Origin: Rhodococcus zopfii NBRC 100606 = JCM 9919
GTDB taxonomy: Bacteria > Actinomycetota > Actinomycetes > Mycobacteriales > Mycobacteriaceae
DNA length: 64,000 nt
Direction: 5' to 3'
NCBI RefSeq assembly: GCF_001895025.1
Contig: NZ_BCXI01000007.1
Coordinates: forward strand, 62,001-126,000
Below are positions 186 to 22,960 of the stretch, piece after piece. The first letter of the stretch is position 1, and each line of letters opens with the position of its first letter. A model generated the notes under the pieces. The model worked only from the letters and a program-made list of their open reading frames with translations. It had not been told where the DNA came from and searched no databases. Both the position numbers and the translations under genes were made by a program.

Positions 186-439
186 GAGGAGTGTTATGGA
201 AGACGTCCACGACATATGTTGGGCGTCTTCCTTTTTGGTCCCTGCTTCCCCCGCGCTCATCAAGGATTTCGGCAGCGACGCCACGACGGGCGCGTATCGC
301 CGAAGCCCGTGCGGGTGGCGGAGGCTGCCACGGCAAGCCGTGGCCGCAGCGTCCGGTCGTCCGTGAGCCGGAGTCGGACGACTACGTTCGACCGGCGTCC
401 CACCTGACGTCCGCGCTGGACCATCGTCGCCGATGACCC

Positions 440-479
440 GTGCGTGGTTTTGGTAGTTCCAACTACCGAAACCACGCAC
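440..479. terminator. Hairpin at the 3' end of the OYE gene (family A, copy 2)
   Basis: A 17-bp stem with one G-T wobble (440-456 with 463-479) and a six-base loop lies 11 bases beyond the stop of the minus-strand Old Yellow Enzyme gene. The arm starts GTGCGTGGTTTT and ends GGTAG, closely matching the hairpins at 146-185 and 10557-10596. It probably ends the minus-strand transcript. Confidence 0.6.
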
Positions 480-2805: not shown

Positions 2806-3726
2806 ATGCTCGAATCCGGAAATGCCGCAGCCGAATACGCGTCCGCACCGGAGTCGCGGAACGGGTCGTCGGAGTCGCAGCGGGAACTGCCCGCGTCCAT
2901 GGTCGAGCGCATGACGCTGATCCTCGACGCGTTCGACGGTGCCTCCTCCCGGCTGACCCTCGAGGAAGTGGCCTGCCGCACCGGGCTGCCTCGTTCCACC
3001 GTCCACCGCATCCTCGACCAGATGGTCCGCCTCGAGTGGGTCGACCACGCGTCGTTCGGCTACTGTCTCGGCCGCCGCGCCACGTCCCTCGGCGCCGGCG
3101 ACAGCGGCCACGGCCGCATTCGCGAGGCCGCGGCCCCGGTCCTCCACGAACTGCACCTGCAGACCGGGATGGTCGCGCACCTCGCGATCCTCGACCGCGG
3201 CGAGATCGTCTACCTCGACAAGGTCGGCGGGCAGCTCGCCGCCACCCTGACCTCCCGCGTCGGCGGCCGTGTCGCCGCCCACGCGACCGCGTGCGGAAAG
3301 GCGATCCTCGCCGGTCTGCAGCCCGAGCACATCGACGCGCTGTACGGCGCCGGCTTGCCGCGCCGCACCGACCGCACCATTTCCGACCTCGCCGTGCTGC
3401 ACCGCGAGCTGGGCCGCATCCGGCAGCGTCACGGGCTGGCGTACGAAACCGGCGAGGCGATGGCCGGCATGGCGTGCGTCGGCGCGCCCGTCCGCAGCCC
3501 GCAGGGGCCGGTCGCGGGCATCTCGCTGTGCGGCCCGGCGCGTCCCGGTCACCTCGACCGCATCGCGCCACTGGTCGCCGACGCTGCGCGCGACGTCTCG
3601 CGCATGCTCCACCCCGAACTGGGGGCGCCGCGCCGCGCCCGCCGCCTCACCGAGGATTCGGCGTCCTTCGTGCTGCCGGACACGGCCGAACAGTTCGTCG
3701 CCGGAAGAACCGGGGCATGGGCCTAG
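2806..3726 (+). CDS. IclR-family transcriptional regulator
   Basis: The 306-residue regulator has an N-terminal winged helix around residues 30-95 (LTLEEVACRTGLPRSTVHRIL is the recognition region) and a C-terminal effector domain containing VAHLAILDRGEIVYLDKV and HATACGKAILA, both typical of IclR proteins. The first 30 residues are a low-complexity extension. A strong ribosome site (GGAGGAGG, about 2788-2795) precedes the ATG at 2806. It heads the plus-strand run of hydrolase, oxygenase and dioxygenase genes and probably controls them in response to an aromatic or steroid-derived ligand. The ligand is unknown. Confidence 0.9.
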   Translation: MLESGNAAAEYASAPESRNGSSESQRELPASMVERMTLILDAFDGASSRLTLEEVACRTGLPRSTVHRILDQMVRLEWVDHASFGYCLGRRATSLGAGDSGHGRIREAAAPVLHELHLQTGMVAHLAILDRGEIVYLDKVGGQLAATLTSRVGGRVAAHATACGKAILAGLQPEHIDALYGAGLPRRTDRTISDLAVLHRELGRIRQRHGLAYETGEAMAGMACVGAPVRSPQGPVAGISLCGPARPGHLDRIAPLVADAARDVSRMLHPELGAPRRARRLTEDSASFVLPDTAEQFVAGRTGAWA

Positions 3727-10549: not shown

Positions 10550-10556
10550 ACCACCC

Positions 10557-10596
10557 GTGCGCGGTTCCGGTAGCGGGTGCTACCGGAACCGCGCAC
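10557..10596. terminator. Bidirectional hairpin between convergent genes (family A, copy 3)
   Basis: A perfect 17-bp stem (10557-10573 with 10580-10596) and a six-base loop lie between the stops of the SDR (10549) and the convergent GNAT gene (10607). The arm runs GTGCGCGG to CCGGTAG and is nearly identical to the hairpins at 146-185 and 440-479. Confidence 0.7.
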
Positions 10597-19715: not shown

Positions 19716-20753
19716 ATGAAACTGGGATTGCAGCTCGGCTACTGGGGCGCGCAGCCGCCCGCGAACGCACCGGAACTCGTTGCTGCCGCGGAGGCCGCGG
19801 GCTACGACGCGGTGTTCACCGCGGAGTCCTGGGGTTCGGACGCGTACACCCCGCTCGCCTGGTGGGGATCGGCGACCGAACGGCTGCGTCTGGGCACCTC
19901 CGTCGTCCAGTTGTCGGCGCGCACACCGACCGCCACCGCGATGGCGTCGCTGACCCTCGACCACCTCAGCGGCGGCCGACACATCCTCGGACTCGGTGTC
20001 TCCGGGCCGCAGGTCGTCGAAGGCTGGTACGGGCAACCGTTCGCCAAGCCGCTCGCGCGCACCCGCGAATACGTCGACATCGTCCGAAAGGTCCTGGATC
20101 GCAAGGAACCGGTGACGAGCGACGGGCCTCACTACCCCATGCCCTATACCGGTGAGGGTGCGAGCGGACTCGGCAAGCCGCTCAAGCCGATCACCCATCC
20201 GCTGCGCGCCGACATCCCGATCTGGCTCGGTGCCGAAGGGCCGAAGAACGTCGCGCTCACCGCGGAGATCGCCGACGGCTGGCTCGCCATCTACTACTCG
20301 CCGCGGCTGGCGCCCATGTACAACAAGTGGCTCGACGAGGGCTTCGCCCGCCCCGGTGCCCGCCGTACCCGCGAGGATTTCGAGATCGCGGCGACGTGCC
20401 AGGTCATCGTCACCGATGATCGCGCCGCCACCCTCGCTGCGCAGAAGCCGATCATGGCGCTGTACATCGGCGGCATGGGTGCCCCCGAACTGAACTTCCA
20501 CGCCCAGGTGTACCGGCGCATGGGTTACGACGCGGTCGTCGACGAGGTGACCGAGCTGTTCCGATCCGGCCGCAAAGATGCAGCGGCCGAGGCTATTCCG
20601 GACGAGATGGTGACCGAGACGATGATCGTCGGCAACCGGGACGAGGTTCGGGACGGAGTGCGACGGTGGGAGGATGCGGGGGTGACGATGCTGCTCGTCG
20701 CCTGCCGCGACGCCGACCACGTGCGGTCGCTGGCGGACGTCGTGCTGCGCTGA
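19716..20753 (+). CDS. LLM-class F420-dependent oxidoreductase (Rv3520c-like)
   Basis: A 345-residue luciferase-like enzyme with MKLGLQLGYWGAQPP, YDAVFTAESWGSDAYTPLAWWG, SLTLDHLSGGRHILGLGVSGPQVVEGWYG and the IPIWLGAEGPKNVALTAEIADGW segment. It matches the family of Mtb Rv3520c in size and motifs and keeps its position beside the Rv3521/ltp4/ltp3 block. The ATG at 19716 follows GAAAGG. It shares the KstR-boxed divergent promoter with the DUF35 operon. The steroid substrate is unknown. Confidence 0.87.
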   Translation: MKLGLQLGYWGAQPPANAPELVAAAEAAGYDAVFTAESWGSDAYTPLAWWGSATERLRLGTSVVQLSARTPTATAMASLTLDHLSGGRHILGLGVSGPQVVEGWYGQPFAKPLARTREYVDIVRKVLDRKEPVTSDGPHYPMPYTGEGASGLGKPLKPITHPLRADIPIWLGAEGPKNVALTAEIADGWLAIYYSPRLAPMYNKWLDEGFARPGARRTREDFEIAATCQVIVTDDRAATLAAQKPIMALYIGGMGAPELNFHAQVYRRMGYDAVVDEVTELFRSGRKDAAAEAIPDEMVTETMIVGNRDEVRDGVRRWEDAGVTMLLVACRDADHVRSLADVVLR

Positions 20754-20765
20754 CTGTCCGCTACT

Positions 20766-20837
20766 GTCCGCCTCCGGCGGATCCGAGCGAATGTATCCTT
20801 CGTCTCCTTCAATCGACTGGGTGTACCACTCGCTCAC
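20766..20837 (+). repeat. Left inverted repeat of the cassette (72 bp)
   Basis: It starts GTCCGCCTCCGGCGG and ends ACCACTCGCTCAC. It is about 96% identical to the reverse complement of 21963-22033 and lies 13 bases after the LLM stop codon. Confidence 0.85.
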
Positions 20838-20962
20838 TCCACATTGCGGGAGAACCCGCCCGAGTCGGGTAGTTGTCCACAGGCGGGCAACTTCTCCACA
20901 GCTTCGGCGGTAGTGGTGCTTTCGGCGGCTCAGCGTCGCTACCGGCATCGCATGATCGGTCC

Positions 20963-21919
20963 ATGAGACGAGGGGAGTGGGGCGAGGATCCCGAGATGCT
21001 GATCCGGATCGCGAACCGCGGGATCATCGCCGACGCGACGCTACGGAGGAACGGGGTGTCGGGTTCGGCAATCCATCAGCGATGCAGACCCGGTGGTCCC
21101 TGGGAGCGCGTGCTTCCGGGGATCATCCACCTGCGCAATGGCCGGCTGAGCAACCGTCAGCGGTCCGTTGCCGCGTTGATGTACGGCGGCGACACGGCCA
21201 TCCTGACGGGACGTGCGGCGCTACGTGAATACGGATTCGAAAGCGCCGCTCACGACGCCCACATCCTGCTCCCGGCGGACCAGCGCATCCAGTCGAAAGG
21301 ATTCGTGCTGGTAGAACGTACGCACCGCATGCCGGAACAGGTGAGTCGCCAGGGGCTTCGCTGTGCGCCACTCGTTCGTGCCGTTCTCGACGCGGCACGT
21401 CGTTGCACGACACTCGACGCGACGCGTGCGTTGATCGCCGAAGTCGTGCAACGGAGAGCGGTGACGGTCCCGGAGTTGTCGGAGGAGCTCGAGGTCGGGA
21501 GCGGTCGAGGTTCGGCGTTTCCCCGGACGGTGCTGCGGGAGGTCGCGGCGAACGTACATTCGGTCCCGGAAGCGCACGCACGGAAACTCTGGTTGCGCAG
21601 TGGGTTACCGGAGATGGTGTTCAACCGGGACGTCGTCGATGCCCACGGCAATTTCGTCGCGCGTCCCGACGGCTGGATCGACGAGGTCGCGATGGCGTGG
21701 GAGGTCGACTCGCTCGCATGGCACCTCTCGCCGGCCGACTACAAGAGGACGCTGGAGCGCCGGACGAGAATGCAGGGTCTGGGCATCATCGTTCTGGCGA
21801 CCGCGCCCAGTGCACTTCGGGACAGCCCGGATCGGGTTGTGGCCGAGTTGGTCCGGCACTTCGAGTTGGCGCGGTCGCGTCCACGTCCGAACGTTCGAGT
21901 CGTGATTCCCGGCGAGTGA
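20963..21919 (+). CDS. DUF559/AbiEi-like protein inside the inverted-repeat cassette
   Basis: A 318-residue protein. The N-terminal part (MLIRIANRGIIADATLRRNG, then a PGGPWERVLPGIIHL stretch) resembles the winged-helix AbiEi antitoxin-like domain, followed by ALREYGFES and a helical middle. The C-terminal part (VARPDGWIDE, VAMAWEVDSLAWH, then GLGIIVLATAPSALRDSPDRVVAEL) has the layout of the DUF559/Vsr-like endonuclease fold, with acidic residues at RPDGWIDE and WEVDS. Such proteins are common in multiple copies in Nocardiaceae. No partner toxin or antitoxin gene is adjacent. The ATG at 20963 begins the conserved domain; an earlier ATG at 20873 is possible. Function unknown; defence or addiction is a guess from domain type. 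Confidence 0.7.
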   Translation: MRRGEWGEDPEMLIRIANRGIIADATLRRNGVSGSAIHQRCRPGGPWERVLPGIIHLRNGRLSNRQRSVAALMYGGDTAILTGRAALREYGFESAAHDAHILLPADQRIQSKGFVLVERTHRMPEQVSRQGLRCAPLVRAVLDAARRCTTLDATRALIAEVVQRRAVTVPELSEELEVGSGRGSAFPRTVLREVAANVHSVPEAHARKLWLRSGLPEMVFNRDVVDAHGNFVARPDGWIDEVAMAWEVDSLAWHLSPADYKRTLERRTRMQGLGIIVLATAPSALRDSPDRVVAELVRHFELARSRPRPNVRVVIPGE

Positions 21920-21962
21920 ACCGGGCATCCCGGCTGCGACACCCTCCCCGCACTCCCTGCAT

Positions 21963-22033
21963 GTGAACGAGTGGTACACCCAGTCGATTGAAGGAGACGA
22001 GGGATACATTCGCTCGGACCGCCGGAGGCGGAC
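21963..22033 (-). repeat. Right inverted repeat of the cassette (71 bp)
   Basis: The reverse complement starts GTCCGCCTCCGG and ends ACCACTCGTTCAC. It begins 43 bases after the stop of the cassette gene and merges on its outer side with an 18-bp tandem array. Confidence 0.85.
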
Positions 22034-22083
22034 GGGCACCCGGAGGCGGACGGGCACCCGGAGGCGGATGGGCACCCGGAGGA
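22021..22083 (+). repeat. 18-bp tandem repeat, about 3.5 copies
   Basis: Units cccggaggcggacgggca run at 22021-22038 (first base g), 22039-22056, 22057-22074 (one c-to-t change) and a partial unit to 22083. The first unit overlaps the outer 13 bases of the right inverted repeat, and the core GGAGGCGGAC is the complement of the cassette end. Confidence 0.8.
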
Positions 22084-22123
22084 GAAAGGGGAGTGCGGGA
22101 GGGGGAGGTGGACGACGAGAAGA

Positions 22124-22960
22124 TCAGGCGCCGGTGAATTTCGGCGCGCGCTTCTCGGCGAAGGCGCGGGGGCCTTCCTTGGCGTCGGCGCTCTTGAACA
22201 CCGCGGCACCGAGTTCGGCGTCGATGCGGAAGGCCTCTTCCTCGTGCATGCCTTCGGTCTTGCGGATGGTCTCGAGGATCGCCTGGACGGCGAGGGGGCC
22301 GTTCGCGGAGATGGTTTCGGCGATTTCGAGGGCCTTGTCGAGTGCTCGGCCGTCGGGGACGACGTGACCGATCAGCCCGATCTCCTTCGCCTCGGGCGCT
22401 TTCAGGTGGCGGCCGGTGAGGAGGATGTCCGCGGCGATCGTGTACGGGATCTGGCGGACCAGGCGGACCGCGGAGCCGCCGAGCGGGAACAGTCCCCACT
22501 TTGCCTCGGACACACCGAATTTGGCGCTCTCCCCGGCAACGCGAATGTCGGTGCCCTGCAGGATCTCGGTGCCACCGGCGATGGCGGGGCCCTCGACGGC
22601 GGCGATCAGGGGCTTGGTGAGCCGACGGCCCTTGAGCAGGGCGGGGAGCTTCGACAGGTCCCAGCCGCCGCCTTCGAATTTGTCGCCGGGGGCGGACTTG
22701 TTCATGTCCTTGAGGTCGGCGCCCGCGCAGAACGCGCCGCCCGCGCCGGTGAGGATCGCCACGCGGATCCCGGGATCGCTGTCGACGCGGTCCCACGCCT
22801 CGGCCATGATCCCCATCATTTCACCCGACAGGGCGTTGCGGGCCTCTGGACGGTTCATCGTCACGATGAGTACGTGGCCGCGCTGCTCGACGAGGCAGTG
22901 CGGTGCGCGTTCCGAAATGTCCGAAGATTCGGTGGTGCCGGAGGGCGCGGTAGTGGACAC
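22124..22960 (-). CDS. echA19: Enoyl-CoA hydratase EchA19
   Basis: A 278-residue crotonase-fold enzyme that hydrates the side-chain enoyl-CoA in sterol beta-oxidation. The oxyanion-hole region [15 protein letters not shown], the second motif [19 protein letters not shown] and the [22 protein letters not shown] segment are present, with the catalytic Glu expected in GGTEILQ. The first 18 residues are a Ser/Thr-rich extension relative to Mtb EchA19 (263 residues). It is divergent from fadD19 with a KstR-like box between, the same pairing as Rv3516/Rv3515c. Confidence 0.9.

Follow-up and report, generated by a model that had tools for sequence, protein, structure and literature searches.

Repetitive extragenic palindromes (REPs) carry GTAG or CGTC end tags, and homing endonucleases of the EDxHD type reside in interrupted genes. 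In a REPtron, as described in excerpts of two accounts, a single gene lies between two palindromes in inverted orientation, every type of gene has its own family of scattered intergenic palindromes, and the unit shows no obvious hopping of its own (PMC6006769, PMC3733652). REase_MTES_1575 is, according to an excerpt of its description, a restriction endonuclease of the Vsr family (PMC3710099). Here we describe a 64,000-nt stretch of Rhodococcus zopfii NBRC 100606 = JCM 9919 (contig NZ_BCXI01000007.1, positions 62,001-126,000; hereafter the window), in which one gene for a protein with an AbiEi-like part and a C-terminal nuclease is enclosed by two near-identical inverted palindromic arms. The arrangement appears to work like a REPtron and is not one: its anatomy matches in the points compared, exceptions aside, and the defining enzyme does not.

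The likeness, measured against the excerpted REPtron accounts, is that the gene is flanked by inverted palindromes of a dispersed family, with one family per gene type, exceptions aside. The differences are that the enzyme is a PD-(D/E)XK nuclease of Vsr/EDxHD type joined to an AbiEi-like part, not an HUH Y1 tyrosine transposase, and that the palindromes are ~50 nt long with no GTAG/CGTC end tag visible. Unlike the EDxHD homing endonuclease I-Bth0305I and the Vsr mismatch endonuclease, the unit lies in intergenic DNA between inverted palindromes; it does not sit in an intron, intein or broken host gene, the two neighbours being convergent and complete in the window. These neighbours are called here Rv3520c-like and echA19-like, presumed names that come from an earlier note on this DNA and serve as labels. 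Unlike the AbiEi antitoxin of the type IV AbiE system, the gene has an extra C-terminal nuclease and no adjoining AbiEii toxin gene: no AbiEii nucleotidyltransferase was found next to it, the neighbours being the Rv3520c-like and echA19-like genes both here and in relatives. DUF559/REase_MTES_1575 proteins, stand-alone or AbiEi-fused, belong to the same nuclease family as the window gene, and the portion of PMC3710099 available notes no palindrome link, the term 'inverted repeat' occurring 0 times in that text.

The two arms are 95.8% identical in inverted orientation over 72 aligned columns (Table 1), which bears out the earlier note's description of near-identical arms of 72 and 71 bp around one gene. 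Their gap-free core pair (20782-20837 and 21963-22018) is 96% complementary with a spacing of 1125 nt. Among inverted pairs 500-1500 nt apart, surveyed in 121 sliding 3.9-kb windows over the whole 64 kb, the arm pair (E 7.7e-22) alone fell below E 1e-10, and the next best pair had an E of 4.5e-5. The enclosed gene starts with ATG, with an alternative longer in-frame start at TTG 20873.

The window protein matched no Pfam, NCBIfam or PHROGs family; it matches PADLOC AbiEi at 5e-12. A profile of 76 relatives aligns almost end to end with paralogues matching AbiEi_4, MTES_1575, DUF559 and, in one case, Vsr (hhalign to AbiEi-fused or stand-alone DUF559/REase_MTES_1575 paralogues: probability 99.6, E 5e-24), and the same 76-row profile found nothing under E 0.16 among the PDB sequences. 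The catalytic residues are retained (D236 to H254, 21668-21724). By fold and catalytic residues the protein is an AbiEi-like part with a C-terminal PD-(D/E)XK nuclease of the Vsr/EDxHD type. The earlier note's label 'DUF559/AbiEi-like' was right, though it can be reached only through relatives, and the C-terminal domain, which the note had singled out for a search for nuclease residues, is predicted to have the Vsr/EDxHD fold with its catalytic residues in place. In a paralogue of Rhodococcus sp. SMB37 (L046/L188) the nuclease core has been lost in frame and the arms are still there; its relative in Rhodococcus sp. HNM0563 (L037) retains the core.

The arms belong to a dispersed family, designated type A. 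Searched with an 81-nt arm query, the window's own genome (G000) yielded 49 matches with an E of 10 or less; 30 of them, both arms included, had an E of at most 7e-5, which leaves 28 other places. The copies are imperfect palindromes of ~51 nt with the form GAGCGAATGTA-Y-CGTTCG-TCTCCTTCAATCGA-...-CATTCGCTC, many of them set within TTTCC...GGAAA. By a crude test, 0 of the 30 lies inside an open reading frame (ORF) of at least 200 aa with a third-position GC content (GC3) above 0.85, L005 and L022 standing at 0.85. The copy nearest to the arms (L003, 98% over 53 nt) occupies the same position in genomes G004 and G015, and the corresponding intergenic region of G002 and G013, both without the gene, has no palindrome. 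At the site where G000 has L003, genomes G007 and G001 have AbiEi-REase-like genes (L213 and L214). Rfam gave no match to the window at gathering score and nothing but sub-threshold miRNA-family matches for 12 loci of the own genome.

A reading of the palindromes as intrinsic terminators was rejected: in 61 full type A copies, out of 66 inspected from G000, G004 and G015, TTTT follows the stem within 14 nt at 0 of 122 strand ends and AAA at 46, so that the polarity is wrong. The same count bears on the idea that this is a defence or toxin-antitoxin gene, coding for an AbiEi-type antitoxin or an anti-phage nuclease, with the palindromes as self-marks or terminators. The AbiEi-like fold and the PADLOC match speak for it; the wrong polarity and the surroundings, a conserved Rv3520c-like/echA19-like pair with no nucleotidyltransferase toxin, speak against it, and we give it very little credence.

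The dispersed palindromes go with the gene. Within the genus set of 18 genomes (own genome included), a type A half-palindrome pattern with up to 2 mismatches was found 32 times in G000, 20 in G004, 32 in G015, 16 in G001, 5 in G017 and 3 in G011. It is in these six genomes that the gene occurs (68-100% identity) next to one or both of the Rv3520c-like and echA19-like genes (the G015 contig stops before echA19). The 12 genomes without the gene gave 2 occurrences in G007 and 0 in the remaining 11, and the reversed pattern used as a control gave 0 in all 18. Since the genomes are related, this co-occurrence is not independent evidence by itself. Type B palindromes occur in 8 of the 18 genomes, 6 of which have a type B gene found, and type C palindromes in 9, again with the matching gene found in 6. 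Beyond the genus, a Kibdelosporangium/Amycolatopsis pattern built from the arms of four genes occurs at 66, 107, 49 and 81 places in the four source-gene genomes, at 40 in Prauserella muralis and at 0 in 12 other genomes, and a Pseudonocardia arm pattern at 75, 34, 71 and 330 places in four Pseudonocardia and at 0 in 14 others; reversed-pattern controls for both gave 0. Arm similarity also tracks protein identity (Mantel r 0.385, 0/2000 permutations, 40 loci). Exceptions aside, the arm type of a gene is the type of the palindromes scattered in its genome.

The layout itself is common to much of the gene family. All 28 homologous loci of the genus were scanned, paralogues elsewhere down to 27% identity included, and BLAST showed an inverted pair with an E of 1e-3 or lower in 26 of them. 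A strict inverted-repeat score, which replaced an earlier one whose weak mismatch penalties let it run into coding sequence, placed 27 of the 28 above all 156 control ORFs (0/156 above score 14); at the 28th (L055), inspection by eye shows type C palindromes on either side. The arm sequences are wholly different between gene clades and fall into types A to H (for example GGGGAGGTTGTGT... in type B and CCGTGCGYGGTTYYGGTAG... in type C). Among actinobacterial loci (11-row profile; best 80 of 120 relatives, 79 scorable), 50/79 score at least 15 against 1/92 neighbour ORFs, and 41/70 when the 9 loci from genomes already seen are left out; the cut-off was read against the control distribution, in which, with 92 controls and one of them a hairpin pair, p<0.01 is unreachable (0/79). 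That one control is a neighbour ORF at L150 of Antrihabitans, where a hairpin pair (799-2356, score 37) encloses a 518-aa ORF beside a DUF559-like gene and not the gene itself. In RNA folding against shuffles, the arm windows of the 50 loci gave a mean z of -6.5 (42/50 below -2) and the 29 lower-scoring loci a mean z of -0.3 (2/29 below -2). The association of this gene family with inverted palindromes is near certain. The cassette that the earlier note treated as a single case is real, and its arrangement recurs in much of the gene family.

It is quite unlikely that the arms are passive, that is, an independent repeat family moved by another enzyme, with a gene that would tolerate, or attract, a flanking copy at either end. 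Dispersed copies without a nearby gene, the age and sharing of many palindrome sites, and genomes that have palindromes and no matching gene found would all suit such a view. It leaves unexplained that bracketing is, among the loci and control ORFs set against each other, almost limited to the gene family (27/28 vs 0/156; 50/79 vs 1/92), that arm type tracks gene clade, and that the classical REP transposase is absent from most carriers. PF01797 (Y1/RAYT) is absent from 4/6 genomes with a type A gene (G001, G004, G015, G017) and from 5/6 with a type B gene (G005, G006, G008, G009, G014); it is present in G000, G007, G010, G011 and G012, and in 5/14 control genomes, E. coli among them. A RAYT acting in trans was rejected for the 4 and the 5 genomes that lack PF01797.

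The position of the arms bears on a further alternative, in which an AbiEi-like regulator uses the arms to autoregulate its gene, the scattered copies form its regulon and the nuclease domain serves another purpose. At 27 loci the downstream arm is 2-10 nt past the stop codon (13 loci), overlaps the end of the gene (11) or is 25-44 nt away (3, the window locus among them); the upstream arm stands 2-99 nt before the start codon, taken as the first one after the arm. A downstream arm at most 44 nt from the stop codon or overlapping the gene end has no obvious use as an operator, and it is as well kept as the upstream arm. The catalytic residues are retained, and 34-330 copies are many for a regulon. 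We regard this operator model as unlikely.

The gene is found at the Rv3520c-echA19 junction in R. erythropolis, R. qingshengii, R. globerulus, R. wratislaviensis, R. tibetensis, R. opacus, R. koreensis, R. jostii and Antrihabitans, and between sister species the gene and both arms change together there. The Rv3520c proteins of R. erythropolis and R. qingshengii are at zero distance, but the genes differ by about 0.42 and the arms are unrelated. For R. wratislaviensis and R. opacus the distances are 0.02 for Rv3520c and about 0.49 for the gene; their arms differ, and the gene points in opposite directions in the two species. What R. ruber (G007) has at this junction is a solitary palindrome, of its own type D. 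In G010 and G012 (L062, L065) an unrelated gene, presumably a class II glutamine amidotransferase, is found there, which indicates that the junction accepts inserts. The earlier note had contrasted its proposal with a situation in which arms occur only here, gene and arms are fixed in all relatives and no site is empty; the arms were found dispersed, and relatives vary in what stands at the junction: other cassettes, a single palindrome or an unrelated gene.

Ordinary homologous recombination could also keep the arms alike, with repeats that flip or convert, cassettes swapped via the flanking genes and a nuclease without a role. The flanking genes are conserved, and the gene in R. opacus, R. 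koreensis and R. jostii is oriented opposite to that of R. wratislaviensis and others, as recombination would allow. The two orientations are, however, different alleles with different arm types, so that a simple flip of one cassette is insufficient, and the genome-wide cognate copies are left unaccounted for; this explanation is very unlikely. Palindromes at breakpoints were seen in three cases, which are anecdotes rather than a test: in R. erythropolis, on our reading of the alignment, foreign DNA starts within the remnant of an older arm type; at a dispersed G004 site, G000 has only half a palindrome left, with another flank; and in G015 (L033, about 2492-2648) foreign sequence, which gives the impression of an insertion-sequence end, starts in the loop of the downstream arm, close to the contig end.

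We lean towards the view that the cassette works in the manner of a REPtron, but around an unrelated nuclease that acts on its own palindromes. The protein, with a winged-helix DNA-binding part of AbiEi type and a nuclease in one chain, would recognise its own type of palindrome when this is extruded or single-stranded during replication and would cut it; repair after cutting could then copy palindromes to new places, keep the two arms alike and allow one arm-gene-arm cassette to replace another at a site. Binding, cutting, dispersal by the enzyme, cassette movement and any benefit to the host are matters of inference. Among type C palindromes, 57 distinct sequences keep their pairing through C-G/T-A exchange, in a set whose selecting pattern allowed, at those pairs, C or T opposite A or G and nothing else; this preserved pairing means that single-strand or cruciform structure probably matters in the type C family. 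Of the three readings offered in the earlier note, a nuclease-driven cassette in which the Vsr/DUF559 fold acts on its own repeats appears to fit best, because arm copies are spread over the genome, arm type goes with gene clade, sister species differ in arms and gene at once and the fold is of Vsr/EDxHD type. A transposase acting in trans found no support as far as Y1/RAYT, the only transposase looked for, is concerned. On a wider proposal our judgement is evenly divided: that a second class of REP-like replicator evolved independently, with AbiEi-DUF559 (MTES_1575/Vsr-like) proteins as its enzymes, each clade co-evolving with the palindrome that it cuts and disperses, in much of Actinomycetota and at tens to hundreds of copies per genome.

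Several observations weigh against a palindrome-dispersing nuclease. (i) The dispersed copies are mostly old: against the 30 G000 loci, 12 of the 18 non-arm places of G004 (all of them) and 14 of 20 taken from the 32 of G015 are shared with G000, and palindrome turnover is slow. Copies without a counterpart in G000 do not resemble the arms significantly more closely (p 0.065 and 0.75). The arm search that the earlier note had proposed for this genome and other Rhodococcus found the arm again (28 places; 6/6 carriers) and, in the sites compared among relatives, no clean empty site with a target duplication; the comparisons turned up sites in common, intergenic DNA that had diverged or a broken half-palindrome, and documented no fresh palindrome insertion. 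For two type B sites of G006 an empty counterpart had been expected in G009, but G009 has both, in mutated form. (ii) Gene and palindrome do not always coincide. Type C palindromes without a matching gene found are present in G004, G012 and G010, and type B palindromes likewise in G003 and G011, with genes taken from one search with the window protein that was not designed for types B and C and may have missed some. Amycolatopsis thailandensis has 38 Amycolatopsis-type places, yet other arms on its own gene, and the AbiEi-REase gene of G001 and G007 has no arms. (iii) The layout has gaps: 29/79 actinobacterial loci score below 15, including all those of Kutzneria, Kitasatospora and Streptomyces as well as several Rhodococcus-group loci (L132 and L133 among these do have arms, though diverged ones), and among phylum-wide DUF559 loci (30 from 119 genomes searched, 28 scorable) p<0.01 was reached in 8/28. 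(iv) As DNA, the window arms alone fold poorly (z -0.01 and -1.7; -7.5 for the dispersed sibling L013), so that only arm-to-arm identity is kept there. (v) The own genome and G011 carry Y1 transposases.

No description of palindromes flanking DUF559/AbiEi-nuclease genes was found among the open-licence PubMed Central papers listed by the searches, judged mostly by titles and the opening lines of abstracts, and the data suggest a kind of DNA system, selfish or housekeeping, that has so far escaped notice. If the palindrome-cutting model is right, a widespread gene family that at present goes under the labels antitoxin or DUF559 would gain a function, the scattered palindrome families in the genomes of Rhodococcus, Amycolatopsis and Pseudonocardia would be accounted for, and there would be an HUH-independent case of a nuclease-palindrome partnership. 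One could then ask if partnerships of this sort are selfish or help to maintain the chromosome. The model predicts that each nuclease recognises its own palindrome only.

Table 1. Positions of the arm-gene-arm unit and of other features in the window
Feature	Position	Strand	Remark
Upstream arm, 72 nt	20766..20837	+	95.8% identical, inverted, to downstream arm
Palindromic core of upstream arm	20785-20835		GAGCGA...TCGCTC
Downstream arm, 71 nt	21963..22033	-	inverted copy; core 21965-22015
AbiEi-like + Vsr/EDxHD-type PD-(D/E)XK nuclease gene	20963..21919	+	318 aa
18-bp tandem repeat, about 3 copies	22015..22086	.	overlaps outer end of downstream arm, continues just outside
Rv3520c-like flanking gene (context)	19716..20753	+	adjoins nuclease gene in many Rhodococcus
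echA19-like flanking gene (context)	22124..22960	-	
Lone type C palindrome	438..479	.	matching gene cassette elsewhere in same genome, contig C25:37087-38267
Second lone type C palindrome	10555..10596	.	

The 18-bp tandem repeat is GC-rich and probably not part of the arm-gene-arm unit; similar TCCGCCTCC flanks stand beside the palindrome copies L034 and L006. The two lone type C palindromes read CCGTGCG..GGTAG...CTACC..CGCAC. At four loci (L077-L080), small stand-alone DUF559 genes of about 110-150 aa have inverted CCCTCCC...GGGAGGG-like flanks, 2/4 of which pass p<0.01, and the palindrome link may reach beyond AbiEi fusions to small stand-alone DUF559 proteins. At L105 a DUF559 gene lies between multi-unit inverted repeats (239 nt, 85%). 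The R. ruber cassette L038 is followed, about 560 nt past its end, by a third type D palindrome (3195-3245).
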